64,000 nt of DNA from Methylocystis rosea (GTDB lineage: Bacteria; Pseudomonadota; Alphaproteobacteria; Rhizobiales; Beijerinckiaceae): positions 2,269,501 through 2,333,500 of the forward strand of contig NZ_CP034086.1 of the NCBI RefSeq assembly GCF_003855495.1. Direction: 5' to 3'. The notes beneath the pieces were generated by a model. The model searched no databases and was not told the origin of the DNA. It saw only the letters and a list, made by a program, of their open reading frames with translations. Each line of letters starts with the position of its first letter. The first letter of the stretch is position 1. The position numbers were made by a program, and so were the translations under genes. Positions 13,439-60,334 of this stretch are shown in pieces.

Positions 13439-13570
13439 GTCTACGCCGCTTGCCGCCCCAAGTTTAAACAGTAGGCGACGCGGCAGACGTTTCAATAGGC
13501 GCCACAAGCTCTGGATTGGTCCGAGCGCTGGCCAATATGGTCCCTATTCGTAACCCGCACCAACGAATCG

Positions 13571-14278
13571 ATGAGCAGAGCGAAATTGGCGATTGCATCG
13601 ACGGCGAACGGCGCGCCCAGCGTCCAGGCCTTCTCGGATTTCGGAGCGAAAATCGCCGTCGCGATCATCGTCGCTTCCGCGGTCGGGCTTGTCGCTTCCG
13701 CGGGTCCGGGCCTCGGACCTCGCGCGTCTCACATGGCGACGCACATTATATTAATGAGCGCGCTCGCGCCTTTTTTGGCTGTGCTGTGGATGCGTTTCGC
13801 GTCGGCGCCGGTCCTCGCGACCGGTCGCGCCCTGGCGGTTGTCACCGCGGCGCAGCTTGCCCTGCTCTATGCGTGGCATGCGCCGGGGGCTGCCGCTTAC
13901 ACGGAGTCGCATCCGACCGCGCATCTCCTGATGCACGCGTCGCTGCTGGCGGCCGCCCTGCTGTTCTGGCTCGCGATTCTTGGCGATACAGGCGTCGCGC
14001 GCTGGCGCGGCGTCGCCGCTCTGGCGATCACCGGAAAGGTCGCCTGCCTTCTCGGCGTGCTTCTTGTGTTCGCGCCGCGCGTTCTCGACACAAGCGCTGC
14101 AAGTTGGGGAGTGACCACAGAGACAATGTTGGCGGATCAACGCCTTGCCGGTTTGCTGATGCTGGCGGCCTGCCCGGCAAGCTATGTCCTCTCCGGCGTT
14201 TGGATCGCATCCCGATGGCTGCTTGCTTTGGAGGACGATCGCGTGCAGGGGCGTTCCGATCGTCCGGACGGCGCCTAG
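13571..14278 (+). CDS. ctaG: Cytochrome c oxidase assembly protein, caa3-type CtaG family
   Basis: A 235-residue polytopic membrane protein with about six helices. The segments SHMATHIILMSALAPFLAVLW, LYAWHAPGAAAY and PTAHLLMHASLLAAALLFW carry the His and Met residues that mark the caa3_CtaG family, which helps build the CuB site of heme-copper oxidases in the Bacillus sense (unrelated to Cox11). The gene ends 12 bases before the fused oxidase subunit on the same strand, so the two are almost certainly cotranscribed and functionally linked. Confidence 0.85.
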   Translation: MSRAKLAIASTANGAPSVQAFSDFGAKIAVAIIVASAVGLVASAGPGLGPRASHMATHIILMSALAPFLAVLWMRFASAPVLATGRALAVVTAAQLALLYAWHAPGAAAYTESHPTAHLLMHASLLAAALLFWLAILGDTGVARWRGVAALAITGKVACLLGVLLVFAPRVLDTSAASWGVTTETMLADQRLAGLLMLAACPASYVLSGVWIASRWLLALEDDRVQGRSDRPDGA

Positions 14279-14290
14279 GGCGCCGCCTCG

Positions 14291-16843
14291 ATGCCTGAAC
14301 GCCAAAGCGACCCGAAGCGTCTTCCAAACGAAACGCCGCGGCCGCCAGGCGAACTTGAAGAACTTGAGCGCGTCTGGGCCTATCCGCCGGGGTGGCGAAA
14401 AATCAGCGAGATCAACAACAGTCTCGTTGGCGTCATCTATATCGGCGCGGCCTTTCTGTTCTTTCTGCTCGCGGGCGTGCTGGCGCTGATCATGCGCGTC
14501 CAACTTTCGCACGGCGACAATCGTTTCATCGGACAGGATTTCTACAACCAGATCTTTACCGTGCATGGCACGACGATGATGTTCCTTTTCGCCGTGCCTG
14601 TGATGGAGGCGCTGAGCGTCATCCTGCTGCCGCAGATGCTGGCTGCGCGCGACCTGCCCTTTCCAAGGCTGAGCGCCTTCGCCGTCTGGGCCTATGTGAT
14701 CGGCGGCCTCGTGTTCTTCTCGACGATCTTCTATGGACTCGCGCCGAGCGGCGGCTGGTTCATGTATCCGCCGCTGACGCTGACCAAGTTCTCGCCGGGA
14801 GACAACGCCGATTTCTGGCTGCTCGGCATCGGCTTCATCGAGATATCCGCAATCGCTGGCGCCATTGAAATTATCGTCGGTTTGCTGCGCACGCGGCCGC
14901 CGGGGATGACGCTCGACAAGATGCCGATCTTCGGCTGGTCGATGCTGGTCTTTGCGGCGATGATCGTCTTCGCCTTCCCCGCTGTGATCCTTGCGACCAT
15001 GATGCTTGAGATCGAGCGGTCCTTCGGCTGGCCCTTCTTCAATGCGGCCCAAAGCGGCGATCCGCTGCTGTGGCAGCATCTCTTCTGGTTTTTCGGGCAT
15101 CCCGAGGTCTACATCATCTTCCTGCCCGCGGCCGGTCTCGTCTCGATGATCGTGCCTACGATGGCGCAACGGCCCCTGGTTGGCTACCGGCTGATCGTCG
15201 TCGCGTTGATCGCCACGGGCTTCTTCAGCTTCGGCCTGTGGGTGCATCACATGTTCAGCACCGGCATACCGGCCCTAAGCCTCGGTTTCTTTTCGGCCGC
15301 GAGCATGGCGGTCGCCGTGCCTTCCGGCATTCAGGTCTTCTCATGGATCGCGACGATCGCCGCGGCGCGCGATCGATTCAGAATCACCACGCCGTCGCTG
15401 TTCATCCTCGGATTTCTTTTCATCTTCGCGGTCGGCGGTCTGACGGGCGTCATGGTGGCGGTCGTGCCGTTCGATCTTCAGGCGCATGACAGCTATTTCA
15501 TCGTCGCGCATTTCCATTACGTGCTCGTCGGCGGCATGGTGTTTCCGCTGTTTGCGACCTTCTATTACTGGGACCCGATGATCAGCCGGAACCGGCTTTC
15601 GGAGCGCCTGGGGCGCTACGTGTTCTGGCTTATGTTCATCGGCTTCAACGTCGCCTTTTTCCCCATGCACATCTCTGGTCTCCTCGGCATGCCGCGCCGG
15701 GTTTGGACCTATCCAAGCGCCATGGGCTGGGACACGCTCAATATGACGTCCACCATCGGCGCCTTCATTCTCGCGCTCGGCGTGCTGGTGTTCGTCGTCG
15801 ATATTTTCGTGCGCTTCCGGCGCGACTGGGAGACGCAGCGAAGGCAAACCAACCCCTGGAACGCCGGAACGCTGGAGTGGCTGCCGAGCGATCTTTATTC
15901 GATGCGCAGCGTTCCAATCGTCACGAGTCGCTACCCTCTATGGGATCAGCCCAATCTCGCCGAGGACGTCGCCGCGGGGGCCTATTATCTGCCGAACGCC
16001 GCAACCGGACGGCGCGAGACGATCGTCACCTCGCCGATCGACGCCCGACCGGAATATCTGCTGGAAATGCCGGGGCCCGGCTGGGCGCATATGTTCTCCG
16101 CGGTCTTCACGGCCGCTTTCTTTCTGCTGCTGACGGTGAAGGCCGTTGCGATCGCGCTTGTCTGCGGCGCGGTAGCCATCTTCGCCACGCTCGTCTGGTG
16201 CTGGCAGCTCGACCCGCCGCCGCGCGGACGGGTGGAGATCGGCGGCGGGATCAGTCTGCCCACCTATATGTCCGGACCCTCGTCGCACGCCTGGTGGGCG
16301 ATGATCGTGCTGATCCTCGTCGCCGGCTCGCTCTACATCGCCTTCGTCTTCTCCTACCTCTATCTTTGGACCGTCAGCCCGGGGGTTTGGCCCCTCGCGG
16401 GCTCTTCGCCGCTTCCGGACCTGCGCTGGGCGGCGAGCGGCGCGTCGCTGATGCTTCTCAGCATCCTTGCGTACGGGATGGCCGACCGCGCGCTTCCAAA
16501 GCCCGGTTCGATCAGCCTATCGGCGGCGCTTCTGATGATCGCCGGCGCCTTGTGTCTCATCGCCGGCGTCGGGATAGAGGGCTATGCGCAATGGCGATCC
16601 GGCCTGCGGCCGGGGGAAAACTCCTACGGCGCGATGGTGTATTTGGACATTGTCTTGACAGGTCAGCTCGTGGCGACTGTCACGCTGATGACCGGATTCG
16701 CCCTGGCGCGTCTCGTCACGGGGAAACTCGATGCGCAGCGACGCGTATCATTCGAAAGCGCGGCGCTGCTGGCTTACTACACAGCCGCGCAAGGGCTCCT
16801 CGGATTTCTGCTCATTTATGGCTTTCCGCGAATGCTGGGGTAG
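14291..16843 (+). CDS. ctaD: Cytochrome c oxidase subunit I+III fusion
   Basis: An 850-residue heme-copper oxidase catalytic subunit. Residues of about 30-540 are subunit I: heme a ligand His92 (TVHGTT), CuB and tyrosine site His270-Pro-Glu272-Val-Tyr274, CuB His319-His320, and heme ligands His407 and His409 (AHFHYV). The D-channel Asp121 (ARDLPFPR) and Glu272 are present. The position normally occupied by the K-channel lysine (PTGIKVFSW in A1 oxidases) is Gln348 here (PSGIQVFSW). Residues of about 600-850 form a second membrane region resembling subunit III. No subunit II gene is adjacent. CtaG is just upstream and a small membrane protein just downstream. Confidence 0.93.
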   Translation: MPERQSDPKRLPNETPRPPGELEELERVWAYPPGWRKISEINNSLVGVIYIGAAFLFFLLAGVLALIMRVQLSHGDNRFIGQDFYNQIFTVHGTTMMFLFAVPVMEALSVILLPQMLAARDLPFPRLSAFAVWAYVIGGLVFFSTIFYGLAPSGGWFMYPPLTLTKFSPGDNADFWLLGIGFIEISAIAGAIEIIVGLLRTRPPGMTLDKMPIFGWSMLVFAAMIVFAFPAVILATMMLEIERSFGWPFFNAAQSGDPLLWQHLFWFFGHPEVYIIFLPAAGLVSMIVPTMAQRPLVGYRLIVVALIATGFFSFGLWVHHMFSTGIPALSLGFFSAASMAVAVPSGIQVFSWIATIAAARDRFRITTPSLFILGFLFIFAVGGLTGVMVAVVPFDLQAHDSYFIVAHFHYVLVGGMVFPLFATFYYWDPMISRNRLSERLGRYVFWLMFIGFNVAFFPMHISGLLGMPRRVWTYPSAMGWDTLNMTSTIGAFILALGVLVFVVDIFVRFRRDWETQRRQTNPWNAGTLEWLPSDLYSMRSVPIVTSRYPLWDQPNLAEDVAAGAYYLPNAATGRRETIVTSPIDARPEYLLEMPGPGWAHMFSAVFTAAFFLLLTVKAVAIALVCGAVAIFATLVWCWQLDPPPRGRVEIGGGISLPTYMSGPSSHAWWAMIVLILVAGSLYIAFVFSYLYLWTVSPGVWPLAGSSPLPDLRWAASGASLMLLSILAYGMADRALPKPGSISLSAALLMIAGALCLIAGVGIEGYAQWRSGLRPGENSYGAMVYLDIVLTGQLVATVTLMTGFALARLVTGKLDAQRRVSFESAALLAYYTAAQGLLGFLLIYGFPRMLG

Positions 16844-48232: not shown

Positions 48233-48519
48233 CCCGAGATCTTCCTCACCAACTCGCTAACATACGGCGCGAACTGCGTTTGACGCGCCAGCTAAGCGCA
48301 AGCACTTTCAGGAAATAAAGCATAGATCATTCAAATCAAGCCGCCGTCGACGTTCCGCTGAACGGCGCTCGATCAGCGACGGCCAAGGCCCGACTACGAG
48401 GCCTGCCGAACACGTGGGCTCCACAGGAGCTGCGATGTCCTGGCCTTTCCCCGATTGGAACAACGACGATGTCAGCGGGTTAAGGCGAGGCTCGAACTAT
48501 TTCGAGGATGGAGGCAAGA

Positions 48520-48849
48520 ATGGCGACGCCAGAACTGGAGCGCATCCGACAATCGGATCGCCCGATCAGCGAGACTGCTGCGATCATGGGCGACAAAGCA
48601 ATGGCGGCGGCCGACAGAGTCGGGCAACGCATCAATCAGACAATGGAGCAAGCCGGATCGGCGATGTCCACGGTGCAGGAGAAGGGCAGCGAAGCCGCCG
48701 GACGCGCCGGCGATGTGATCGGCAACTTCCGGCAGGCCATCGAGAAGTCGGCGCGCAGTCAGCCAACGACGACTGTGCTCATGGCGGTGGCAGCGGGATT
48801 TATGCTGGGCGCGATGTGGAATTCGGGCAGCAGCAATCCGCGCGACTAA
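48520..48849 (+). CDS. Small tail-anchored protein, YqjD/ElaB-like
   Basis: A 109-residue protein. The ATG at 48520 follows GGAGG by 5 bases. Residues of about 10-80 are an amphipathic helical region rich in Ala, Met, Gln and Gly (MGDKAMAAADRVGQRINQTMEQAG), and residues of about 85-103 form a single membrane helix (TTTVLMAVAAGFMLGAMW). The shape is that of YqjD/ElaB/DUF883 proteins, some of which tether ribosomes to the membrane. Similarity is by architecture, so function is open. Confidence 0.65.
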   Translation: MATPELERIRQSDRPISETAAIMGDKAMAAADRVGQRINQTMEQAGSAMSTVQEKGSEAAGRAGDVIGNFRQAIEKSARSQPTTTVLMAVAAGFMLGAMWNSGSSNPRD

Positions 48850-48893: not shown

Positions 48894-49511
48894 TCAGTTT
48901 CGGTCCAGCGCGCTCGGGTCTCGCGCGCGCTCAGAGGGTAAGGCGCTGGGCCAGTCGTCGGCTTGAAGCGCCGGAAGCGCGTCGAGTTCCTTCCTAGATA
49001 TTTTACTGTGCGCAAAATCGGCTGTGAACTCTATGTTCGCCGGATCGACGGCGCGGAGCGTCTCGCCAACGCCGCCCATTCCATATTGCGCGACGACCAC
49101 ATAGGCGAGGCCGCGCTGATCGCGTCTCAGCATCAAATCAACGATGACGCCGAGCCTCTCGCCGCTCGCGTCGATGACATTAGCGCCAACGGCCGCCGAC
49201 GCAGAAAAGAGCGTCGGCACGGCGTCCGCGTGGCTGCTCTTGCGCACGGCCTTGATGCTTCCGTCCTCATGCCTTGCCTGCCTGCCCAACCACCGCCATA
49301 CCCCAATCAAGTTGACCACCGTAAGAACAAGATTGGTGAGCAACAGATTGCGCTGATGGGAGTACGTCGCGGTCAAGCTCCAGGCGACGGAGCCGATTGC
49401 AAACACGACGAAACCCCACCCCGTGACGCGCGCGCCCGCGTTGGCGGCGGTCATCATCGCGGCGATCATTGTTGCGGCTGGTGCGATCCAGCCTAACGCC
49501 CATTCCCACAT
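48894..49511 (-). CDS. Membrane protein with C-terminal PRC-barrel-like domain
   Basis: A 205-residue protein. Residues 1-75 form three membrane helices (AAMMTAANAGARVTGWGFVVFAIGSVAW, then LLLTNLVLTVVNLIGVWRWLG), like YgjV/PnuC-type small bundles. Residues of about 105-175 (FSASAAVGANVIDASGERLGVIVDLMLRRDQRGLAYVVV) have the two-strand pattern of a PRC-barrel. The combination suggests an envelope sensor or RNA/protein docking unit; no function is known. It converges on the YqjD-like gene. Confidence 0.65.
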   Translation of the reverse strand: MWEWALGWIAPAATMIAAMMTAANAGARVTGWGFVVFAIGSVAWSLTATYSHQRNLLLTNLVLTVVNLIGVWRWLGRQARHEDGSIKAVRKSSHADAVPTLFSASAAVGANVIDASGERLGVIVDLMLRRDQRGLAYVVVAQYGMGGVGETLRAVDPANIEFTADFAHSKISRKELDALPALQADDWPSALPSERARDPSALDRN

Positions 49512-49734
49512 AAGTGACCGCCATTAGGCCCACGCCCGCGCCGTTTACCTGAAACGCGCCGTTAAAGACGCTGTTCCGACACATCAGTGGCCACGCCGGA
49601 GATAGGCCGGCGCGGGAGCGATCGCCGCCGCGGAAACCTGTCCAACTGTTCATAATGCCGGAACAAAGTTGCTGAACCCGAGTTTGTTCAGGGAGATCGA
49701 AAAGCAAAGAAAACGGCAAGGCTTGAGGTGGAGC

Positions 49735-50874
49735 ATGATGTCAGTTCCAAGTCATCTTTTTTGTTTCTCCCATCTTCGTTGGAACTTCGTTTATCAGCGA
49801 CCCCAGCATCTTTTGAGTCGAGCAGCTAGAAATCTCAGCGTCTTCTACGTTGAAGAGCCCATCTTTTCTCAAGATGACGTAGGCGTAAAAATCCAGAGGG
49901 ACGAAGCCTGCGGCGTCGTTGTCGTGACGCCTGTTCTTCCAGAAGGCCTCTCACCAGACGAAATCACAAACGCGCAACATCGAGTCGTAAACGAATTGCT
50001 CGCTGATGTGCGGCCTTCGCGATGGGTTAGCTGGTACTATACGCCCATGGCGCTTCAGTTTACGCGCCATCTGACTCCCAACCTGCGCGTCTATGACAAT
50101 ATGGATGAGCTTTCCGCGTTTGCTGGAGCGCCGCAAGGCATTCTCGACCTCGAACGAGAGTTGATGGCCAAGAGCGAACTCATGTTCGTCGGCGGACAGA
50201 GCCTGTACGAATCCAAACGTAAGCGACACGACAACATTCACGTTTTTCCGAGCAGCGTCGACACCGCCCACTTCAAAAGCGCGCGAGAGCGCAGTGTTGA
50301 CCCTCTTGATCAAAGGGAGATTCCGCATCCCCGCATCGGGTTCTTTGGCGTGATCGATGAACGCATGAATATGGATATCGTCGCCGGCATCTCGGCGCTG
50401 CGGCCGCAATGGCAATTGGTGATGATCGGCCCTACCGCGAAGATCAGCCCCGAATCTCTGCCGCGCGCCGAAAATATTCATTGGCTGGGCTGCAAGCAGT
50501 ACCAGGAGCTTCCGAACTACCTATCCGGATGGGACGTCGGAATCATGCCATTCGCGTTGAATGAAGCGACGCGTTTTATCAGCCCGACGAAGACCCCGGA
50601 GTTTCTCGCTGCAGGCGTGCCAGTGGTTTCAACGGCCATCGCCGATGTCGTTAACCCCTACGGCGCGGCCGGGCACGTGGAAATCGCGTCGAGCGCGGAA
50701 GAGTTCGTCGCCAAGATTGATCTGTTGCTGGCGCGGCCGAAGGCGCACTGGCTCAGCGCAGTCGATGCGCATCTGGCGGAAATGTCGTGGGACAAGACCT
50801 GGGCGAGGATGATGCTGCACATCGCGAGCGTCGGCGCCGAGACCAAATCAGCGCGGGAGGGGCAACTTGTTTGA
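49735..50874 (+). CDS. Glycosyltransferase, GT4-like fold
   Basis: A 379-residue GT-B glycosyltransferase. The N-terminal half starts LFCFSHLRWNFVYQRPQHLLSRAA, a start typical of the RQRPQ-type GT family; the C-terminal half has PSSVDTAHFK, RIGFFGVIDERMN, the donor-site region WLGCKQYQELPNYLSGWDVGIMPF and TKTPEFLAAGVPVV. It has no signal peptide. The stop overlaps the UDP-galactopyranose mutase gene by 8 bases, so the two are coupled, and UDP-galactofuranose is a plausible donor. The ATG at 49735 is preceded by GAGGTGGAG. Confidence 0.88.
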   Translation: MMSVPSHLFCFSHLRWNFVYQRPQHLLSRAARNLSVFYVEEPIFSQDDVGVKIQRDEACGVVVVTPVLPEGLSPDEITNAQHRVVNELLADVRPSRWVSWYYTPMALQFTRHLTPNLRVYDNMDELSAFAGAPQGILDLERELMAKSELMFVGGQSLYESKRKRHDNIHVFPSSVDTAHFKSARERSVDPLDQREIPHPRIGFFGVIDERMNMDIVAGISALRPQWQLVMIGPTAKISPESLPRAENIHWLGCKQYQELPNYLSGWDVGIMPFALNEATRFISPTKTPEFLAAGVPVVSTAIADVVNPYGAAGHVEIASSAEEFVAKIDLLLARPKAHWLSAVDAHLAEMSWDKTWARMMLHIASVGAETKSAREGQLV

Positions 50875-52009
50875 CTGGCTTATCGTCGGGGCAGGCTTCG
50901 CGGGAAGCGTGCTGGCCGAGCGGCTTGCGTCGCAGCGTGACGAGCGCGTCCTTCTTATCGATCGTCGACCGCACATTGGCGGCAACGCCTATGATCGCTA
51001 CGACGAGGCCGGCGTGCTCATGCATCAGTACGGCCCGCATATCTTTCACACGAACTCCGAAGCCGTCTTCGAGCATCTTTCGCAGTTCACGCGTTGGCGT
51101 CCGTACGAGCACCGCGTGCTCGCGAATGTGGACGGCATGCTCGTGCCTATTCCGATCAACTTGGACACGGTGAATCGCCTCTACGGCCTCTCCCTAGATT
51201 CCGAGCAACTTGCGCAGTGGTTCGCAAGCCGCGCCGAACATTGTGAAGAGATCAAAACGTCTGAGGACGTCGTCGTCAGCACCGTGGGGCGAGAACTCTA
51301 CGAGAAATTCTTTCGCGGCTACACCAAAAAGCAGTGGGGCGTAGAGCCGTCGCAGCTGGACAAGTCCGTAACGGCGCGGGTGCCTACGCGCCTCAATCGC
51401 GACGACCGCTATTTTGGCGATGAATACCAATTCATGCCGCTTCACGGCTACACGCGCATGTTCGAACGGATGGTGGACCACCCCAACATCAACGTCATGC
51501 TGCAGACCGACTTTGAGGAAGTGCGCAACGAAGTCTTCTATAAACGGCTGATCTTCACCGGGCCAATCGACGAATATTTCAATTTCCGCTTCGGCAAGCT
51601 GCCCTATCGATCCCTGCGCTTCGAACATGTCACGCTCGACAAGCAGCAGCATCAGCCTGTGGCGGTCGTCAATTATCCACAAACTGAAGCCTATACGCGG
51701 GTGACCGAATATAAGCATCTCACGGGTCAGGAACATCCCAAAACAAGCCTGACCTATGAATTCCCGAGCGATGAAGGCGATCCCTATTATCCCGTGCCGC
51801 GCCCGGAAAATGCGGAAGTCTACAAGCGCTATGAGAAGCTTGCGATCGCGCAGCAAAATGTTTGGTTTGTCGGGCGGTTAGCAACCTATCGCTACTACAA
51901 TATGGATCAGGTGGTCGGCCAGGCGCTCGCGACGTTCCGACGGATCAACAAGGAGATCCCAGCGCGCAACAGCGCGGCCTTCGCGACGGCCTCAGTCGCC
52001 GCTGAATAG
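50867..52009 (+). CDS. glf: UDP-galactopyranose mutase
   Basis: A 380-residue flavoenzyme that converts UDP-galactopyranose to UDP-galactofuranose. The FAD motif is WLIVGAGFAGSVLAERLA, followed by HIGGNAYDRYDEAG, the substrate segment YGPHIFHTN, YTKKQWGVEPSQL, and a conserved C-terminal VWFVGRLATYRYYNMDQVVGQAL. The start is a TTG at 50867 with GGGAGGGG 4 bases upstream; no ATG is available near the N-terminus of the fold. It is expected to be cytoplasmic and to feed the glycosyltransferase whose gene it overlaps. Confidence 0.96.
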   Translation: MFDWLIVGAGFAGSVLAERLASQRDERVLLIDRRPHIGGNAYDRYDEAGVLMHQYGPHIFHTNSEAVFEHLSQFTRWRPYEHRVLANVDGMLVPIPINLDTVNRLYGLSLDSEQLAQWFASRAEHCEEIKTSEDVVVSTVGRELYEKFFRGYTKKQWGVEPSQLDKSVTARVPTRLNRDDRYFGDEYQFMPLHGYTRMFERMVDHPNINVMLQTDFEEVRNEVFYKRLIFTGPIDEYFNFRFGKLPYRSLRFEHVTLDKQQHQPVAVVNYPQTEAYTRVTEYKHLTGQEHPKTSLTYEFPSDEGDPYYPVPRPENAEVYKRYEKLAIAQQNVWFVGRLATYRYYNMDQVVGQALATFRRINKEIPARNSAAFATASVAAE

Positions 52010-52192
52010 TCGAGTCGCGATCGCGATGAGGAAACTCTGTTGCGCTGCGCGATCCGGCTAAGCTTGAGTCGCAAATAAAAATACTGGCGTTTTGACGGTC
52101 GCTATGTAGAAAATCGACTGTGGATCGCTCATTGTTATACCGACCAACGCGTCGATGCTCGGCGCCGGCGCTTTTGGTCGAGGTGAGGTTAG

Positions 52193-54931
52193 GTGAGCGC
52201 AGCGCGCATATCCCTAGACGGGTCGTGGGACTTCAAATATCTCGGCTATGGCGCCAAGCCGGCCGAGAGCAGGACGATTCTTGTCCCAAGCCCTTGGCAA
52301 GCCCAATTCGCCGATCTGCGCATGCGCGGCGGCGTCGCGGTCTATCGCCGAGAGGTGGAGATACCTGAAGAATGGCTGGAGGAGCGGGTGTTCCTGCACT
52401 TCGGCGCCGTTTTTCACGTTACCCATGTGTTTGTGAACGGCGCATTCGTGGGCAGCCATGTGGGCGGCTTCCTGCCGTTTCATTTCGACATCACAGACCG
52501 GATCGTCAACGGAAAAGCCGAGATTAAGGTGAAGGTGGAAAGCCCCACCGACGACCCGTTCGAATTCCCCACGACGCCTTTCGCCGAAATGCCCTTCGGC
52601 AAGCAGAGCTGGTACGGCCCCCTCTCTGGAATATGGCAGTCCGTGTATCTCGAAAAGCGGATCGCGGACCACGTAACCACGGTGCGCGTGCGTTCATCGC
52701 AGGCGAGCGGAGAGATTTCGGCGCAAGTGCGCTTCGAGAGCCCGCTCACGGACGCCGCCGACGTGACGATTACGGTCGTCGACGCAGAGGAAAACGCCGT
52801 CGCGCAGTCATGCGCCAAACTGGCGGCCGGCGTTGAAAACGCCCTGCTGTATTCCTTTGTGCCTGCGCCTCGCTGCTGGTCGCCTGACACCCCCTATCTC
52901 TATCGTCTGCAAGTCTCGATGAGGCGCAAAGACGTCGTCGTCGACCAAATCGAAACGACATTCGGCTTTCGCAGCGTCGAAACCCGAGACGGGAAATTGT
53001 ATCTCAACGGCAAGCCGTTCTATCTGCGCGCCGCTCTCGACCAGGACTATTATCCCGACACGATCTGCACTCTGCCCTCAGTCGAATTTCTCGAGGATAG
53101 ATTTAACAAGGCGAAGCAACTCGGGCTGAACGCGCTGCGCTGTCACATTAAGGTGCCGGATCCGCGTTACTATGAGGTTGCCGATCGCCTTGGCCTGCTG
53201 ATTTGGGCGGAATTGCCGAACGCCGGGGATTCGACCGAACTCTCGCGAGAGCGCAAGGAGCTCACGCTGAAGGGCCTGATCGATCGCGACGGCAACCATC
53301 CTTCGATCTTTTGCTGGACGCTGATCAACGAGAACTGGGGCGTCGACCTTGTCCATGACCCCTATCACCGCGCATGGCTGAAGAAGCTGTACCTGTGGCT
53401 CAAGTCCTACGATCCGTCGCGGCTTGTCGTCGACAATTCGCCCTTGGCGCCAAGCTTTCACGTGCAGACCGATCTCGCGGATTTCCATTTCTATGCCGCC
53501 ATTCCCGATAGTCGGGAGGACTGGGATCAGTTTGTCGAGGAACTCGCGGGAAGGGCCGAATGGCTCTTCAGCCCCGAGGGCGACGCGGTCATCACGGGAC
53601 AGGAGCCGCTGCTATGCTCGGAATTTGGCAATTGGGGGCTGCCTGACCCTGAGAAGTTGAGAGACGCGGCCGGCGCCGAAGCCTGGTGGTTCGAGACCGG
53701 CCACGACTGGAGCGAAGGCGTCATGTATGCGCATGGCGTTCGCAACCGATTTCAAGACTGGAGTCTCGATCGCGTATTCGGGACGTTCGAAAGCTTCGTC
53801 GAAGCGACCCAGTGGCAACAGTTTCGGGCGCTGAAATACCAGATCGAAGCCATGCGCCGGAGGCCGCAGATCGCGGGCTACGTCATCACCGAGCTGACCG
53901 ATTGTCACTGGGAGGCGAACGGCCTTCTGGACATGCGTTCGAATCCGCGCGTTTTTCACAATCTGTTTCACTCGATCAATGCCGATACGGTTATTCTGCC
54001 CACACTCGATCGTCCCGCCTATTGGTCGGGCGACGCCGTTCGCCTCTCGCTCTGCGTGGCGCATGGCGGGCCAAATCCGCTGGAGCCGTCGGCTCTCGAC
54101 ATATCGCTCGCCGAGCCGATGACGTTGGAAATCCCCTCCATCGAGCCCGGCGCTGTGGTCGATCTCGGCGTGATTTCGGTGACCCTTCCGGTGGTGGAGC
54201 ACTCCTGCCTGCGCCGTCTCACCCTGCGCTTGCGTTCTCTCGACGGACGACTTCTCGCGAGCAATGAAATCGACGTTGCCGTGCATGCAAGGCCGCGACC
54301 GCCGGAGCTTTCGCTATGGTCGTCGCACGGCGACATTCGGGACCGGTTGCAGGCGCTTGGCTATAGGTTGGCCGAAGGGGCCGAGACGGCGGACGTCGTC
54401 GTCGAGACGCAAGCTTCCGCGGCGCTGGCGGCCTATGTGCGCGCCGGCGGGCGAGCCGTTCTCTTGACCGAAACGCCAGGCTCGCTCACGCCATTCTTTC
54501 CGCATTGGCAGAACGTCAAGGTGGTGGCGCGCGACGGCACGCTCTGGCGAGGCGACTGGGCGTCCTCCTTCGCCTGGCTTCGACGGCAGGGTCCGTTCGC
54601 CGCGATTCCCGGCGGGCCTCTGCTCGACCAGGCGTTTGATCGTGTGATCCCGACGCATATCATCTCCGGCTGTAATCTCCTTGATTTTCAGGCGCGGGTT
54701 CACGCCGCACTGGTTGTCGGGTGGATCCATCGTCCGGCTGCGATTGCGGTCGGACGCAACTACGGCACAGGCCGCATCGTGATCGCGACGTTCAAACTGT
54801 TCCGTGATCCTCCGGGAGAAGATCCAACCGCCGCGGCTTTGCTTGGCGGCCTGATCGAGGCGGCGGCGCGAAGCGCCGGTCCGGCGCCTGCGATCTCCAA
54901 GCTCGAACCCGTGGGCTGGGAAGACCTTTAG
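52193..54931 (+). CDS. Glycoside hydrolase family 2 protein with extra C-terminal domain
   Basis: A 912-residue protein. The N-terminal ~170 residues are the GH2 sugar-binding jelly roll (ISLDGSWDFKYLG, WYGPLSGIWQSVYLE). Next come an Ig-like domain (about 175-265) and the TIM barrel, with the acid/base Glu380 (WTLINENWG) and nucleophile Glu477 (CSEFGNWG). Residues of about 690-905 form a further domain (GYRLAEGAETADVVVET, GGRAVLLTETPGSL, YGTGRIVIATFKL) resembling the flavodoxin/glutaminase-like module of large beta-galactosidases. There is no signal peptide, so it is probably cytoplasmic. The GTG start follows GAGGTTAG. Substrate is unknown: beta-galactoside, beta-glucuronide or mannoside are all possible. 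Confidence 0.88.
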   Translation: MSAARISLDGSWDFKYLGYGAKPAESRTILVPSPWQAQFADLRMRGGVAVYRREVEIPEEWLEERVFLHFGAVFHVTHVFVNGAFVGSHVGGFLPFHFDITDRIVNGKAEIKVKVESPTDDPFEFPTTPFAEMPFGKQSWYGPLSGIWQSVYLEKRIADHVTTVRVRSSQASGEISAQVRFESPLTDAADVTITVVDAEENAVAQSCAKLAAGVENALLYSFVPAPRCWSPDTPYLYRLQVSMRRKDVVVDQIETTFGFRSVETRDGKLYLNGKPFYLRAALDQDYYPDTICTLPSVEFLEDRFNKAKQLGLNALRCHIKVPDPRYYEVADRLGLLIWAELPNAGDSTELSRERKELTLKGLIDRDGNHPSIFCWTLINENWGVDLVHDPYHRAWLKKLYLWLKSYDPSRLVVDNSPLAPSFHVQTDLADFHFYAAIPDSREDWDQFVEELAGRAEWLFSPEGDAVITGQEPLLCSEFGNWGLPDPEKLRDAAGAEAWWFETGHDWSEGVMYAHGVRNRFQDWSLDRVFGTFESFVEATQWQQFRALKYQIEAMRRRPQIAGYVITELTDCHWEANGLLDMRSNPRVFHNLFHSINADTVILPTLDRPAYWSGDAVRLSLCVAHGGPNPLEPSALDISLAEPMTLEIPSIEPGAVVDLGVISVTLPVVEHSCLRRLTLRLRSLDGRLLASNEIDVAVHARPRPPELSLWSSHGDIRDRLQALGYRLAEGAETADVVVETQASAALAAYVRAGGRAVLLTETPGSLTPFFPHWQNVKVVARDGTLWRGDWASSFAWLRRQGPFAAIPGGPLLDQAFDRVIPTHIISGCNLLDFQARVHAALVVGWIHRPAAIAVGRNYGTGRIVIATFKLFRDPPGEDPTAAALLGGLIEAAARSAGPAPAISKLEPVGWEDL

Positions 54932-54954
54932 GCGAGCTGGCGCGTTATAGCGCC

Positions 54955-56778
54955 ATGCATTCTGCGCAAGACATGACAGACGTCGCGGTTTATCGCCGGG
55001 CGCTGACATACTTCCTACAAGACCGGGTGAGGATCGCCGCGCTTGTCGCGATGATAGCGGTCTCCGTCAGCGTGGGCCTCCTGGAGGCTTGGCCGCTGGC
55101 GGTGCTTGTCGACTCCGTGCTTTCCAGCGAGCCGAAAGGCAACTGGATACACAGCTACTTCCTTGCCGTATTGCCGAAGGACAAGCCGGGGCAGATTGCG
55201 GGTCTGGTCGCGATCGGACTTGGACTGCAACTCGTCGGATATGCGGCCTGGATGGGCCGCATGATGATCAACTATTACCTCAATTATCGCGGCACGACGC
55301 GGGTGCGGTTTGATCTCTTCACCAAGCTTCAAAATCTTGGCCTCACGTATCACCGCAGCCGACCGCAGGGCGACTCGATCTATCGTCTGACGACAGACGC
55401 CTTCGGCCCGTGGGGCATCGTCGACGTCGTGATTGGAACTTCGGTTGCGGCCGTAACGCTCACCGTGATGACCATTATTCTTTTCTCTCGAAACGTCAGT
55501 TTAACGCTGGCGGCATTTACCGTCGCCCCCTTGATGATATGGAGCAACTGGCGATTTGGCGTCAGAATCCACAAACGCGCGCTTGATTCCAAGCAGATCG
55601 ACGCCGATCTGACCGCGCATATTCAGCAGGCGATGGCGCGTATACCTTTGGCGCAGGCGTTCCGTCGCGAGGCTTTCGAATTCAGACGCTTCTCCGGCGC
55701 GGTCGGCAGAAGCGTCGAGGCGCTGCTGAGTTTAAATTGGCAGGAACAGCTCTATCCTCTCGCGCGCGACGGCATCCTGTCCGTGGGCGGAGCGATCATC
55801 CTCGGCTATGGAGGCTGGCTCGTTTACCGAGACCAGTTTCTCGTGCCCGTCGCCGACGGAATGACCGTCGGAACGCTGCTGATTTTCATCGACTACTTGC
55901 GCAAGCTTTGGGACCCGCTGAAATGGCTCAGCGAGTTCTTCGCCAAAGTGCGCATCTTCGAGGCCGCTTCGCGACGGGTTTTTCATGTGCTCGACGAACC
56001 GGAAGCCGTTGTCGATACGCCGGCGGCGCGTTGGATATCCAGTAAGCCGCGAACTCTGACGCTCGAGCGCGTAAGTTTTGACTACGGGAGCGGCAAGCAA
56101 ATTCTCACCGACGTATCGGCGACGATACGGCCGCGCGAGATGGTGGCCTTCGTCGGAGCGAGCGGCGCCGGCAAGAGCACGCTCTTGAGTCTCATGCTTC
56201 GGTTCTACGATCCGACGAGCGGGGCGCTACGCTTGGACGGCGTCGACTTCAGGAACCTACGGCTCGAGGCGCTAAGAGCGCATTTCGCGCTCGTCGCACA
56301 AGACAGCCTCGTGCTGCCGGCGACCATCGCAGAAAATCTCGCCTATGGCCGGCAGAACGCAACGCGAGCGGACATCGAACGAGCCGCAGAAGACGCGGGC
56401 GCCGCAGAATTCATTCACCCTCTGCCTGATGGCTATGAAACCGTGCTCGCCGAGGGCGGCGCCAATCTCTCCGGCGGTCAGCGTCAGCGAATCGCCATCG
56501 CGCGCGCGCTGCTATCCGACGCGCCGTTCCTCATCCTCGACGAACCAACGAGCGCGCTCGATCCCGAGCAGGAGCGTCGGCTGATAGAAACGCTGCACCG
56601 ACTGAAAGGATCACGCACGATTATTCTCGTGACCCACCGTCTGGAGTCGGTCGTCGATTGTGATTGCATCTTCGTCATGAGCAAAGGACAAATCGTCGAA
56701 CGCGGCGCGCACGACGCGCTCATCTCTTCAGGCGGCGCTTTTTCAAAAGCGCGGAGACGTGCTGAAGCGGCGGAGTGA
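54955..56778 (+). CDS. ABC exporter, fused permease and ATPase (MsbA/ABCB type)
   Basis: A 607-residue half-transporter. The membrane domain holds six helices within residues 25-330, with long cytoplasmic extensions. The ATPase domain follows: Walker A GASGAGKST at about 401-409, Q-loop LVAQDSLVLP, signature LSGGQ at 505-509, Walker B FLILDEP with Glu530, and H-loop VTHRLES. Homodimers of this type flip lipids or lipid-linked glycans. It begins 23 bases after the GH2 stop and is the last gene of the plus-strand unit, so it probably exports the glycan or glycolipid made by the cluster. A second start at 54973 is possible. Confidence 0.92.
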   Translation: MHSAQDMTDVAVYRRALTYFLQDRVRIAALVAMIAVSVSVGLLEAWPLAVLVDSVLSSEPKGNWIHSYFLAVLPKDKPGQIAGLVAIGLGLQLVGYAAWMGRMMINYYLNYRGTTRVRFDLFTKLQNLGLTYHRSRPQGDSIYRLTTDAFGPWGIVDVVIGTSVAAVTLTVMTIILFSRNVSLTLAAFTVAPLMIWSNWRFGVRIHKRALDSKQIDADLTAHIQQAMARIPLAQAFRREAFEFRRFSGAVGRSVEALLSLNWQEQLYPLARDGILSVGGAIILGYGGWLVYRDQFLVPVADGMTVGTLLIFIDYLRKLWDPLKWLSEFFAKVRIFEAASRRVFHVLDEPEAVVDTPAARWISSKPRTLTLERVSFDYGSGKQILTDVSATIRPREMVAFVGASGAGKSTLLSLMLRFYDPTSGALRLDGVDFRNLRLEALRAHFALVAQDSLVLPATIAENLAYGRQNATRADIERAAEDAGAAEFIHPLPDGYETVLAEGGANLSGGQRQRIAIARALLSDAPFLILDEPTSALDPEQERRLIETLHRLKGSRTIILVTHRLESVVDCDCIFVMSKGQIVERGAHDALISSGGAFSKARRRAEAAE

Positions 56779-56802
56779 CGATTTGCGGGGATTAGGATCT
56801 CG

Positions 56803-58017
56803 TCAACGCGCCGCGTAGCGCTTGCGCCTCGCAAGATTGAACTGCGAGGCGCGGCGGGATTCAGCCTCCTGCTGCGCCTGATGAAGCGCTTCGAGCGGCG
56901 CTGCGCCTTGAAGCGCCTCCGCCATCGGTTCGCACAGAAGCCGGCCTGCGCCGGGGTCGCGGTGACAGAGCGGATCCCACAAACCCATGGGCGTCCAAAG
57001 ATCGCGATCATGCCACTCGGGCATTCCCAGAATCGGATATAGGCACGCCCCGCGCAAGGGCACGTTCTGAAGCAAGAGCGCGTGGCAGGCGCTGACAACT
57101 TCGCACAGCCACGGTCCACGATTGTCCCCGACGTGACTGGTCTCCGTGATCATGACCTCGCGGCCGTAACGCTGCCAGACAGAGAGAACGAGATCCGATA
57201 GCGGCGCTCGGCGCGGATCATCGTCGTGAAGCGGCGGCACGTTTCCGTCAGCGTTCGGCGTGTCGTTCAACTCCCACTGATTGGTCCAGTAATAATTGAT
57301 TCCCACCACGTCCAAATGTTCAGGACTGCCGCCGAGTTCGGGCAGAAGCCTGCCGCACAACATGTCCCAGCTTTGAAACACGAGCCTGTTATTGAAATCA
57401 TGCGCCTGAGGAGCAAGATCCGGCCTGTCCTCGGGACAGACGACTCGGCACAAGGGATCGACACTGACGAAGCGCGCATCGGGACAGGCGGCGCGTATCG
57501 CATTGATTCCAGCGATTGCGCCACGCGCGAGAACGACCTTCAACTCCCAGCCTCGTCCCGACCCGTACGGCGCGAACAGCGCCTTCTCGCCGCCGGCATA
57601 GGCCATGAAGGAAGGCTCATTGATCGGCGTGAAGACGCAGGGACCATCCATGCGCGCGGCCACGAAGCGCGCCACCGCATAGCAGTAGTCTGCGAAACGC
57701 CGGGGGAACGCCTCGGACCAAAGGTCGACGTCCTGAGGGAAACCATAGTGAAAGAGATCCCATATCACCCCTACGCCGTGGCGGTTTGCGGCCTCGATGA
57801 AGGGTTCGAGCGAGGAGAAATCGTATCGACCGCGACAATCGACGAGCGGCCAACGAACGGTCTCACGCGCGGCATGCAAGCCCAGTCGCGCGATGTCGGC
57901 ATAGTCCGCGTCGACATTGGCGTCGTGACCTGTCGCGACGACCTGATCGAACCACTCGCCGTGCCGGTTGAAGCCTGTCGACCCCTCGAAACCCGCAAGA
58001 AAGAAACTCTGAAACAT
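56803..58017 (-). CDS. Clan-A glycoside hydrolase, GH1-like, first of two
   Basis: A 404-residue TIM-barrel glycosidase. The acid/base is Glu134 (FTPINEPS) and the nucleophile Glu292 (VMITETSHVG). The barrel strands GLHAARETVRWPLVD, GVGVIWDLFHYGFP and LDVVGINYYW are in place. It is shorter than classical GH1 enzymes (about 450-480) and starts MFQSFFLAGFEGSTG, with no signal peptide. GGGAG is 7 bases from the ATG. It is 33 bases downstream of the second hydrolase gene and converges with the ABC exporter gene, 24 bases apart. Substrate unknown. Confidence 0.85.
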   Translation of the reverse strand: MFQSFFLAGFEGSTGFNRHGEWFDQVVATGHDANVDADYADIARLGLHAARETVRWPLVDCRGRYDFSSLEPFIEAANRHGVGVIWDLFHYGFPQDVDLWSEAFPRRFADYCYAVARFVAARMDGPCVFTPINEPSFMAYAGGEKALFAPYGSGRGWELKVVLARGAIAGINAIRAACPDARFVSVDPLCRVVCPEDRPDLAPQAHDFNNRLVFQSWDMLCGRLLPELGGSPEHLDVVGINYYWTNQWELNDTPNADGNVPPLHDDDPRRAPLSDLVLSVWQRYGREVMITETSHVGDNRGPWLCEVVSACHALLLQNVPLRGACLYPILGMPEWHDRDLWTPMGLWDPLCHRDPGAGRLLCEPMAEALQGAAPLEALHQAQQEAESRRASQFNLARRKRYAAR

Positions 58018-58050
58018 GCCTTTACTCCCGGTTCGCTCGTGGAGGCTGCG

Positions 58051-59343
58051 CTACGGCAGCCGAGGCGCTGGCGCGAGCGGACCCACCGCAGCCGCGCCGC
58101 CGGACGTCAGTCGACGATAGGCGTCGACAAGGGGCGTCTCGATACGTTCCAGCCGCCCCGATGGATCAGGATTGAGATCCCAAAGCCCCATTTGCAAAAG
58201 ATGATCGTGGAGCGGTCGCAGCCCCTGTCGATAGGCCCATGTCACGAGCGCGAACATCGGCCACCACGTATAGCCCACAATCGGTACGCCGTTCGCGCGC
58301 AGCGTCTTCATCGCCTCGACGGAGTCAGTGAGCCAGGCCTGTCGCTGTCTCACCGAACCCTTGGTCGCGGTTTCCGAGATCATGATCGGCGCGCCGTAAC
58401 GTTCGAAATACATCTCGCCGATCTTCATCACGAGCGCGCCCGACGCGTAGGGCATTCGAACGCGCAGTCGCCCGAAACGGTCCCGCGACATCCGCTTGAG
58501 CGTGAACATCGGGTAAAGATTCACCCCAATGACGGAGAGCTCAAGCGGGCGTTCACGAAAGGCGTTCAGCGCCGGTTCCGCCGCCCCCTGGGTCAGAAGC
58601 CAGGTCCACAGCGGATGGCGCGGATCGACGCGCCCGCTGATGAGATCGAGCGCAAGAAACACGATCCTTTGACGCCGCTCTGCCTCCTCAGCCAAGGCGG
58701 GGTCGCTCGACTCGAAAACATCGGTGGCGTCGACGTGAAACGCGACGATTTCGGGGTCGACGTCCTGTAGCGCACGGGTCGTTTCGACGATTCCGCGACA
58801 GATGGACAGCATCACCGCAACGAAACTCGACCAGCTGCGCCCGTACGGCGGCCACCAGCCCAAACGTCCGCAATACCACGCGGTGATCCGAGGCTCGTTC
58901 AGCGGCGTGTACCACCTGATCCTTCCACGGAAGCGTTCAGCAAGGCGGGCGGCGTATTCCGCCACGCGCCTTGGATAATCCGCGTTGAGGAAGGCGCGCT
59001 CCATCCAATGCGGCAAACCGTAATGCACGAGGTCAACGATAGGATCGATGTTAAGTTCGAGCATGCGCTCCAGCGCGGCGTCGACGAAGCTGAAATCCCA
59101 GGTCCCCGGCGCCGGTTGCACCCGATGCCAGGGCACGCCATAGCGCGCGCAGGGAACCCCCAATTGCGCCATCAGCGCGATATCCTCTTTCCACCGCCGG
59201 TAATGGTCTGTCAGCTCATATTCGTCGAGCATGCGTCCGGTTCTTGGATGCGGATCGGTGATGAACGTGTCTTCAACGCCGGTGGCCCATAGAAAGGCGC
59301 CAGGCGCAGTGAGCCGATCGAGTTCCGTCGCGCTCGGAAGCAT
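58051..59343 (-). CDS. Clan-A glycoside hydrolase, GH1-like, second of two
   Basis: A 430-residue TIM-barrel glycosidase related to, but clearly distinct from, its neighbour. The acid/base is Glu150 (YTPLNEPR) and the nucleophile Glu324 (IMISETATKG). GAFLWATGVEDTFI at the N-terminus matches GH1-like proteins from polysaccharide loci; there is no signal peptide. A strong ribosome site is not visible before the ATG at 59343. It is first of a two-gene minus-strand unit. Being paired with GH2, Glf and an exporter suggests trimming or transglycosylation during glycan assembly rather than nutrition. Confidence 0.85.
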   Translation of the reverse strand: MLPSATELDRLTAPGAFLWATGVEDTFITDPHPRTGRMLDEYELTDHYRRWKEDIALMAQLGVPCARYGVPWHRVQPAPGTWDFSFVDAALERMLELNIDPIVDLVHYGLPHWMERAFLNADYPRRVAEYAARLAERFRGRIRWYTPLNEPRITAWYCGRLGWWPPYGRSWSSFVAVMLSICRGIVETTRALQDVDPEIVAFHVDATDVFESSDPALAEEAERRQRIVFLALDLISGRVDPRHPLWTWLLTQGAAEPALNAFRERPLELSVIGVNLYPMFTLKRMSRDRFGRLRVRMPYASGALVMKIGEMYFERYGAPIMISETATKGSVRQRQAWLTDSVEAMKTLRANGVPIVGYTWWPMFALVTWAYRQGLRPLHDHLLQMGLWDLNPDPSGRLERIETPLVDAYRRLTSGGAAAVGPLAPAPRLP

Positions 59344-59726
59344 CAGGCGCGATTCACAAGAACGCGGCGCGCCGTAGCGGGAAATGGTCTGGCAGCCCGA
59401 GAGTCGCCGCGGTGGACCACAGACAGCGTAGGCGCTGGATCGGATGGCGTAGGAGCGTCGTTCATCGAAGGCGTCCTCCGTCTCTTCGCCGCGTGTCGCG
59501 CGTGAACCATCGCGAATGCACGCTCAAGCTCGAGACAGCAGCGGCGTGCAGGCCCCTACCTTAACCCTAGAGATCGGCGTCGGTTCCGGCGCGCCGGCGC
59601 ATCACGTTCCCGCAGCTGAGAAAGTCGGACGACGGCAGACTGCCGCGTTGGAGCTGTAAATAATGAAATTCAAAAAGAAATTGGCAAAGCGCACGGCCGA
59701 CTCCCTGGCCGTGCGCTTCATTCGGG
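59344..59726. other. Intergenic region between GH1-like and HdeA/B-like genes
   Basis: 383 bases with no supportable gene; short open frames here have no start signal or family similarity. The right end contains the terminator hairpin listed separately. The promoter of the hydrolase pair should lie in the left part. Confidence 0.4.
59689..59716 (-). terminator. Terminator hairpin after the HdeA/B-like operon
   Basis: GCGCACGGCC (59689-59698) pairs perfectly with GGCCGTGCGC (59707-59716) with an 8-base loop. On the minus strand it is followed by TTTGCC and then a CTTTTTG stretch, as expected for termination of the minus-strand genes that stop at 59727. Confidence 0.65.
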
Positions 59727-60020
59727 TCAGCGGGCGTTCTTCTGGATCGCATCCATGAGCGAAGAATTCGGCTTCTTCTTGCAATAACGCGTGATCTTAT
59801 CCGTATTGCGTTTCACGTAGCGCGATTCGATTACGGTGATGTTGTTCTTGGAGCTGAAATAGCCCCTCATCCAGTTGGCGACGAAGTCCTGAGTGTCTGC
59901 GTCGTACCCGGCAAACTGCTTGCAGGTGATTTCCGACATTTCGATCGTGACCTGCGCGTTGGCCGGAACGGCGAAGGCGGCCGCGGCGAGAGCGCCGGCG
60001 AAAATAAGTTTGCGATTCAT
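59727..60020 (-). CDS. HdeA/HdeB-like periplasmic protein, copy 1
   Basis: A 97-residue protein with a signal peptide (NRKLIFAGALAAAAFAVPANAQ). The mature part has ITCKQFAGYDADTQDFVANWMRGYF and a later TRYCKKKPN, the two-cysteine pattern of the HdeA/HdeB family, acid-activated periplasmic chaperones in enteric bacteria. In alphaproteobacteria the role of these members is less clear. GGGGA precedes the ATG. It follows copy 2 by 17 bases, so they form one operon. Confidence 0.82.
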   Translation of the reverse strand: MNRKLIFAGALAAAAFAVPANAQVTIEMSEITCKQFAGYDADTQDFVANWMRGYFSSKNNITVIESRYVKRNTDKITRYCKKKPNSSLMDAIQKNAR

Positions 60021-60037: not shown

Positions 60038-60334
60038 TTACTTCTGCTCGAAAGCGCGCTGCAGACCCGCCATGACCGACTCATTCGGATTGGAAGCGCA
60101 CCAGCTCTTGACGCTGGCGGAATTTTTCCGGAATAAGTTCACGTCGATGAAGGTTCGGCCGCTTTTCTGCGCGAACCACCCACCCATAAACGCCCCGAAG
60201 TCTGCTTGATCGTCGGCCGGCATCGCCAACAATTCACCGCAGGTGATGCGGGTCATGTCGATCTTGACCTGCGCGTTGGACAGCGAAGGCGCGAGCGCTC
60301 CCGCCGCGGCAAGCGCAATTATCAGCTTCCTCAT
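60038..60334 (-). CDS. HdeA/HdeB-like periplasmic protein, copy 2
   Basis: A 98-residue paralogue of the next gene. Signal peptide RKLIIALAAAGALAPSLSNAQ, then ITCGELLAMPADDQADFGAFMGGWF and KSWCASNPNESVM, keeping both cysteines and the spacing. Sequence identity to copy 1 is modest, so the duplication is not recent. GGAGG lies 7 bases before the ATG. Confidence 0.82.
   Translation of the reverse strand: MRKLIIALAAAGALAPSLSNAQVKIDMTRITCGELLAMPADDQADFGAFMGGWFAQKSGRTFIDVNLFRKNSASVKSWCASNPNESVMAGLQRAFEQK

Follow-up and report, generated by a model that had tools for sequence, protein, structure and literature searches.

A probable galactofuranose gene system with predicted cytosolic glycosidases, linked by promoter motifs to the general stress response of Methylocystis and other Alphaproteobacteria

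A 64,000-nucleotide stretch of the Methylocystis rosea genome (the window; host genome 4.2 Mb) carries, at 49735..59343, six intact open reading frames (ORFs) encoding a glycosyltransferase (GT), a UDP-galactopyranose (UDP, uridine diphosphate) mutase (Glf), a GH2 glycosidase, an ATP-binding cassette (ABC) exporter and two GH1-like glycosidases (GHa and GHb). These genes probably represent a conserved mobile system, placed in Alphaproteobacteria under the control of sigma-EcfG, by which a galactofuranosyl product is made and then remodelled by glycosidases in the cytosol. The first-pass annotation had read the six genes as a single assembly line for a glycan or glycolipid containing galactofuranose (Galf), and the positions, order and strands that it gave are accurate. 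Its idea of one unit holds to the extent that a conserved unit is built on UDP-galactofuranose, but the exporter is not conserved and GH2 is only loosely linked to the cluster within the host's order. The conserved core is GT-Glf together with a GH1-like partner; a predicted furanosidase of family GH2 and an exporter often accompany it.

49735-50874, plus strand: GT, glycosyltransferase with a GT4-type C-terminal half; putative galactofuranosyltransferase
50867-52009, plus strand: Glf (TTG start), UDP-galactopyranose mutase, yielding UDP-galactofuranose
52193-54931, plus strand: GH2 (GTG start), retaining glycosidase of GH2 group III; predicted beta-D-galactofuranosidase
54955-56778, plus strand: ABC exporter, MsbA-like half-transporter with ABC_membrane and ABC_tran domains
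56803-58017, minus strand: GHa, GH1-like glycosidase without a Pfam family
58051-59343, minus strand: GHb, GH1 glycosidase and first gene of the GHb-GHa operon

The start of GT was taken as the ATG at 49735, the mechanically called ORF beginning at the TTG at 49669. GT and Glf overlap by 8 bases and GH2 lies 23 bases before the exporter, exactly as first described; the plus-strand run is nevertheless not uniformly packed, with 183 bases between Glf and GH2. The exporter and GHa converge across 24 bases, and 33 bases separate GHa from GHb. The nearest named relative at the locus, M. rosea SV97 (L038), encodes the six proteins at 97-100% identity.

Conservation was assessed in 249 genomes drawn evenly from the order, with 47% identity or more as the mark of a GT orthologue, and in a scan of named genomes for GHb that gave 76 loci. 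A GT orthologue is present in 22 of the 249 genomes. The loci of all 21 genomes other than the host's were fetched, and in each of them Glf is either next to GT or joined to it in a single ORF. The fetched stretch includes a GHa- or GHb-like gene at 18 of these 21 GT-Glf loci. Searching in the other direction, GHa is found at E<1e-60 in 19 of the 249 genomes, 18 of which hold a GT orthologue (hypergeometric probability 1.2e-22, not corrected for kinship). The exceptions are G210, which has no GT, and G135, whose GHb-GHa pair sits on a different contig. The first-pass annotation had proposed a search for conserved neighbourhoods, with scattered homologues as the adverse outcome; that outcome did not occur, GT being at the same locus in 17 of the 19 GHa genomes and GT-Glf pairing being without exception. 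GHa is the most conserved glycosidase partner of GT-Glf.

Among the named genomes, all six genes are present in seven near Methylocystis loci (L013, L014, L015, L017, L018, L020 and L038), the exporter match of L014 being split in two pieces; the short contig L016 carries GHb alone. At the more distant Methylocystis-like loci L021, L022 and L037, the GHb-GHa pair is the only part of the set present. Microvirga (L039, L040, L041, L054 and L056) has the order GT-Glf-GHb-GHa facing a long GH2, and in Pseudaminobacter (L034) and Verrucomicrobia/Opitutus (L044 and L047) the GHb-GHa pair is accompanied by GT, Glf and a less closely related GH2. Both GHb and GHa occur at 38 named loci, 33 of which were searched for Glf across the whole genome. 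Glf is present at 64% identity or more in 30 of these 33, the misses being the metagenome-assembled genomes (MAGs) of L045, L048 and L049; by comparison, 24 of the 249 order genomes carry Glf at 58% or more. It lies at the locus of the pair in 12 of the 30 genomes and elsewhere in 18. Twelve of these 18 separate Glf loci were fetched; every one has a GT of the family (34-65% identity) next to Glf, and six have the long GH2 (57-62%). A genome thus tends to keep the whole set even where the pair and Glf occupy different loci. Related cassettes occur in Bacteroidota, Verrucomicrobia, and Beta- and Gammaproteobacteria.

Behind the GHb-GHa pair of L021, L022 and L037 lies a gene for a 950-residue protein, and the domains of the L037 copy (13416-16295; AMP-binding, carrier and acyltransferase) hint at acylation or lipid.

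Glf scores 404.4 bits against TIGR00031, above the curated cut-off of 303.75, and its best solved relative is 3hdq (592 bits). This membership of the mutase family shows that Glf is the enzyme expected to make UDP-galactofuranose from UDP-galactopyranose, as had been claimed. Nothing unusual was found in the enzyme itself; what sets it apart is that all 21 relatives have it paired with, or fused to, this GT. The only domain of GT over cut-off is a GT4-type C-terminal domain (PF13692, 39.8 bits against a cut-off of 27). GT weakly resembles TuaH of teichuronic acid synthesis, and a single-sequence search returned no solved structural relative. Because GT is adjacent to and, in relatives, fused with Glf, we infer that it transfers Galf and is a galactofuranosyltransferase.

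Fusions to biosynthetic enzymes in relatives, on which the first-pass annotation was silent, involve both sides of the cluster. GT and Glf form a single ORF in L091, L138, L139, Azospirillum (L185) and Sinorhizobium (L190), and a GT4 domain is joined to GHa in L091, L138 and L190. Comamonas encodes GHa and GT in one ORF that adjoins glf. In Pantoea X85, an ORF of 1236 residues (L188:7992-11702) combines GHa, GT and a FAD oxidoreductase domain of amine-oxidase-like type, the last of which has no match to Glf. A GHb-like domain is fused to an RmlD-type domain in L130, L136, L148 and L152. In Deinococcus radiodurans, a GHa-like domain shares an ORF with an acyl-CoA dehydrogenase domain (L187:8932-11271).

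Relatives of GHa are also carried by 123 of 72,556 plasmid records, and 112 of them cover 80% or more of the protein. Plasmid cassettes have the arrangement GT-Glf-GHa-ABC in Skermanella, [GT-Glf]-GHa-ABC in Azospirillum (brackets marking the fusion), GT-Glf-GHa next to conjugation genes in Chryseobacterium, and GHa facing Glf-GT in Mesorhizobium. Judged by where its genes occur, the gene set is horizontally mobile.

These compact cassettes bear on the possibility that GT decorates a surface polysaccharide, adding Galf to a lipopolysaccharide core or to an exopolysaccharide repeat made elsewhere, with the glycosidases serving as quality control. Glf is usually part of such pathways, GT has its weak likeness to TuaH, and versions of the system in Rhizobium and Sinorhizobium are accompanied by further glycosyltransferase genes, those of Sinorhizobium also by oxidoreductase domains. 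We nonetheless consider decoration quite improbable. In the stretches fetched around the three- or four-gene plasmid cassettes of Azospirillum, Chryseobacterium and Skermanella no second glycosyltransferase is annotated, the gene tables of these plasmids being incomplete, and no polymerase, flippase or ligase was found among the ten locus proteins scanned (the six and four neighbours). The statement that the cluster lacks Wzx/Wzy was borne out among the same ten proteins, the rest of the window and of the genome not having been searched, and a standard exopolysaccharide or O-antigen locus was left aside.

The two GH1-like proteins both retain the pair of catalytic glutamates. GHb matches PF00232 (76.2 bits against a cut-off of 22.6), and its catalytic glutamates (N149-E150 and E324) are invariant in 20 rows and aligned with those of GH1 structures. 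GHa has no Pfam match at E 1e-3 and only a weak NCBIfam GH1 match (TIGR03356, 23 bits). A profile of 23 GHa rows still aligns to GH1 structures, and N133-E134 and E292 are invariant in all of them. Rows from L044 and L135 were dropped from the GHa alignment and that from L050 from the GHb alignment; the ranges of L044 and L050 contain stop codons, and the L135 match (G209) has one stop. GHb and, as a diverged relative, GHa resemble GH1 beta-glucosidases and 6-phospho-beta-galactosidases in profile and in both catalytic glutamates. GHb differs from these enzymes in its C-terminal F-E-W motif, whose Glu has a role in sugar binding: the profile alignment reads V-T-W at this place. At least 2313 relatives of GHa were scored; among the rows inspected, the names are beta-glucosidase, beta-galactosidase, glycoside hydrolase or hypothetical protein.

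The sugar-binding, middle and TIM-barrel domains of GH2 all score above cut-off, and its best single-sequence matches in the PDB are 7sf2, 7xyr and the two entries of 'beta-D-galactofuranosidase 2'. A profile of 18 GH2 rows from these loci scores 426 bits with 7xyr, 366 with 9j6n, 364 with 9j6m and 361 with 7sf2, the fifth match reaching 200. Residues N379-E380, E477 and T566 are invariant in the 18 rows, and T566 aligns with a Thr of 7xyr, 9j6m/n and 7sf2 within the motif T-[EQ]-L-[TH]-D-x3-E-x-N-G. A Thr in place of the Trp of the -1 subsite marks GH2 group III, according to PMC12243196; 7sf2 was assigned to this group by likeness only. The beta-D-galactofuranosidase of Streptomyces sp. JHA19 (PDB 9J6M) and 7XYR share the conserved Thr motif with GH2 and are among its four best PDB matches. 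By these sequence marks GH2 sits in group III (subfamilies 18/19). Furanosidases are confined to this group within the family, a beta-D-galactofuranosidase among them, and we predict the latter activity for GH2. It differs from the comparison enzymes of subfamilies 18/19 in its length (912 residues against about 610, which leaves a C-terminal extension of about 300 residues), in being encoded beside Glf and in showing no signal peptide. Three types of such GH2 occur at these loci, namely the 912-residue form, a form of 620-650 residues beside GHb-GHa and one of 940-980 residues in Verrucomicrobia, which suggests that a furanosidase as such is wanted rather than one particular gene.

Proteins resembling GH43/GH32, below the Pfam cut-off, also recur by GT or GHa (L034:12655-13797, L133:8219-9139 and L194:11712-12752) and are possibly another type of furanosidase.

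Three glycosidases in one cluster could instead serve sugar catabolism, digesting imported oligosaccharides that contain Galf or arabinofuranose. Relatives of GH2 with 43-46% identity in L140, L141, L143 and L145 do adjoin a gene for an ABC ATPase of 360-394 residues and importer-size genes, and in L143, the one locus that Pfam confirms, these are an importer ATPase, a permease and two LacI regulators. We regard catabolism as very improbable here, given the linkage of the glycosidases to Glf, GT and an exporter and the fusion of GHa to glycosyltransferases. The L143 permease has no match in the host genome in a search made without a positive control, a search of that genome with SBP_bac_1 gave eight weak matches that favour neither side, and no importer genes of the CUT1 type lie next to the glycosidases among the ten locus proteins scanned. 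Methylocystis is, moreover, a methanotroph and to our knowledge is not known to grow on sugars.

A simple Kyte-Doolittle scan found no signal-peptide-like start and no clear membrane segment in GT, Glf, GH2, GHa or GHb, in contrast to the exporter; one 19-residue stretch of GH2 at residue 650 reaches a hydropathy of 1.64. We place GH2, GHa and GHb in the cytosol, as glycosidases that would act there, on the strength of their families, their preserved catalytic residues, the absence of signal peptides, their co-occurrence with GT-Glf and the GT fusions.

The first-pass annotation was equally silent on the absence of signal peptides, on the stress genes around the cluster and on the motifs of sigma-EcfG type that precede both operons. 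The corresponding features of the window are as follows.

49660-49684, plus strand: sigma-EcfG-type motif of GT, GGAAC-N17-GTT, ending 50 bases before the GT start
59563-59587, minus strand: sigma-EcfG-type motif of GHb, GGAAC-N17-GTT, 219 bases upstream of GHb
49553-49577, minus strand: sigma-EcfG-type motif of the divergent PRC-barrel gene, in the same intergenic region as the GT motif
48894-49511, minus strand: PRC-barrel domain gene (PF05239), a stress-linked neighbour that we do not claim as a pathway member

In all nine near Methylocystis loci with GT the motif lies 49-52 bases from the gene. The form published for Sphingomonas melonis, GGAAC-N17-20-GTT (PMC6599016), whose spacing range owes nothing to this window, precedes GT in 44 of 50 alphaproteobacterial loci and still in 35 of 41 once the near Methylocystis loci are set aside. 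None of nine other GT regions has it, and among the other ORFs of the loci it stands before 77 of 1345. Eight of those nine are named outside the class and the ninth, L049, is a MAG named only Proteobacteria; L161 was dropped from the count for missing upstream sequence. EcfG is exclusive to Alphaproteobacteria (PMC3892343). A relaxed motif (N16-19-GTT) was chosen after the window sequence had been seen and before the published form was read; it occurs in 44 of 59 GT upstream regions, the same count as with the published form, against 416 of 20,000 random windows, and dinucleotide shuffles of the 50 alphaproteobacterial GT regions gave a mean of 0.68 and a maximum of 3. It was positive in 17 of 21 lineages, some unnamed genera of which could overlap named ones. 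At GHb the motif is carried by Methylocystis-like loci, L023 and L146, and not by Microvirga.

The surroundings of the cluster point to stress regulation as well. Two tandem HdeA/HdeB-family genes lie directly upstream of GHb (59727-60020 and 60038-60334, minus strand), a Mn-catalase gene follows Glf in L156, and ferritin-like, DUF892 and Mn-catalase genes lie near cassettes in other records, all of which we take to be general-stress genes. The PRC-barrel gene has the motif in eight of eight loci, and excerpts of PMC6599016 place a PRC-barrel gene among the top EcfG-regulated genes of Sphingomonas melonis. Seven NepR-like proteins over the Pfam cut-off indicate that a general stress response exists in the host. 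The locus thus resembles the EcfG/PhyR/NepR regulon of Alphaproteobacteria in its motif, its PRC-barrel and HdeA neighbours and the NepR proteins of its genome, and these features suggest that the GT-Glf and GHb-GHa operons are switched on by the general stress response. In the open-licence literature searched we found no description of a Galf system within the EcfG regulon.

Control of this kind would also suit a soluble product, a cytosolic Galf glycoside or oligosaccharide that protects the cell and is degraded by the glycosidases when stress ends, in the manner of trehalose and trehalase, with the exporter incidental. Such a role accords with the motif before GT, with the hydropathy of the three glycosidases, which shows no signal peptide, with the finding of no lipid-carrier enzyme among the locus genes scanned and with the sigma-EcfG dependence of a Bradyrhizobium trehalose operon (excerpts of PMC8092242). 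It accords likewise with the record of the exporter, which is not conserved and is missing from L019. A stress solute is unlikely all the same: an MsbA-like exporter, of another lineage than that of the window, is found directly next to GHa at nine of the 21 order loci, as it is in Azospirillum and Skermanella, and GT-GHa fusion fits synthesis more easily than turnover.

The exporter is a point on which the first-pass annotation is not borne out in the form given. It scores 332.7 bits with TIGR02203 (MsbA lipid A exporter), below the cut-off of 602. In a tree, ten exporters of other cassettes form one clade (support 100/100). The window exporter falls outside this clade, on a long branch whose exact position is uncertain, and reaches 30% identity at best. 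L019 holds the other five genes and lacks an exporter, its GHa and GH2 matches lying 83 bases apart. The exporter was accordingly rejected as a conserved core member, and it is apparently a recruit of Methylocystis. The presence of different exporter branches of one superfamily may reflect repeated recruitment for one job, or coincidence.

In the mechanism that we favour, Glf would convert UDP-galactopyranose to UDP-galactofuranose, and GT, physically coupled to Glf, would put Galf on an acceptor. GHb/GHa and the group III GH2 would act on the same Galf product in the cytosol: GH2, as a beta-galactofuranosidase, may trim the product or turn it over, and GHa, the regular partner of GT, may process or re-transfer the glycan. 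An MsbA-like exporter, its descent differing between lineages, would then move the product, likeliest a Galf glycolipid or oligosaccharide, across the inner membrane. The promoter motif leads us to propose envelope or solute protection under stress as the purpose. Export is the weakest link of this mechanism. A more specific version, which we put forward tentatively as falling somewhat short of an even chance, is that a sigma-EcfG-driven mobile cassette for a Galf glycolipid or solute forms an undescribed arm of the stress response, in which cytosolic enzymes of GH1 and GH2 fold, as standing partners of GT, trim or transglycosylate and GHa founds a new Galf-specific family or subfamily. Under this version, other controls must replace EcfG in the cassettes found outside Alphaproteobacteria.

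Several observations weigh against the favoured mechanism. The window exporter is not orthologous to those of ten other cassettes. No GH1-like gene is present in the stretch at 3 of the 21 GT-Glf loci (L133, L134 and L137), and G210 has a GHb-GHa pair with neither GT nor Glf. G238, of the same genus as the host, has no match to GT, GHa or GH2, and the system is therefore accessory. Relatives of the long GH2 occur in G202, G222, G151 and G005, and in G154 at 170 kb from GT; GH2 orthologues also occur in sugar-import operons of genomes without this GT or Glf. On two Deinococcus plasmids, from D. ficus and D. radiodurans, no Glf is annotated in the vicinity of the GHa relative. As to the promoter, a stricter motif, GGAAC-N15-18-CGTT, is present in only 18 of 59 GT regions (22 of 1345 other ORFs), and the relaxed motif occurs at GHb in 15 of 34 alphaproteobacterial loci, at GHa in 6 of 54, at GH2 in 2 of 26 and at the exporter in 0 of 14. 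Among 12 genomes with the operons apart, both operons carry it in four, only GT in five (Microvirga) and neither in two (Verrucomicrobia), one GT being unreadable. The window-wide count of seven is unremarkable against the 4.95 expected by chance, so the promoter case rests on position and conservation, and the related genomes in which conservation was read are not independent.

Other features of the window and of related loci were recorded alongside. A 113-residue ORF at 48508-48849 (plus strand) is kept at 91-97% in near Methylocystis loci and has no family match over cut-off; an EcfG-type motif belonging to it lies at 48457-48481. In nine near Methylocystis loci, small ORFs that cluster with the tandem HdeA/HdeB genes occupy the corresponding place, and mechanosensitive-channel genes lie near GH2 or GHb in L024, L039 and L147. 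Within the window, Rfam gave no match above gathering scores, and scans for sigma-70 promoters and terminators gave chance levels only. A phage collection yielded a single unannotated record at 23% identity.

Galf is mostly familiar as an envelope constituent of pathogens. A parallel is found in Salmonella, where STM14_0838 and STM14_0839, from a screen for desiccation survival (PMC5596212), are a putative Glf and a glycosyltransferase with consecutive numbers and a role in stress survival; the excerpts of that paper name no glycosidase partners, and the likeness to this cluster is one of description. The protein families of the cluster are all known except that of GHa, which has no Pfam family; for the combination, its mobility and its proposed stress control no description was found in the open-licence literature searched. 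If the favoured mechanism is correct, formation of a Galf product would belong to the general stress response of many soil, plant-associated and methanotrophic Alphaproteobacteria. A poorly understood regulon would thereby be tied to a defined chemistry, and the presence of cytosolic glycosidases in a biosynthetic cluster would be explained. Galf would also become a concrete candidate substrate for the GHa glycosidase family.

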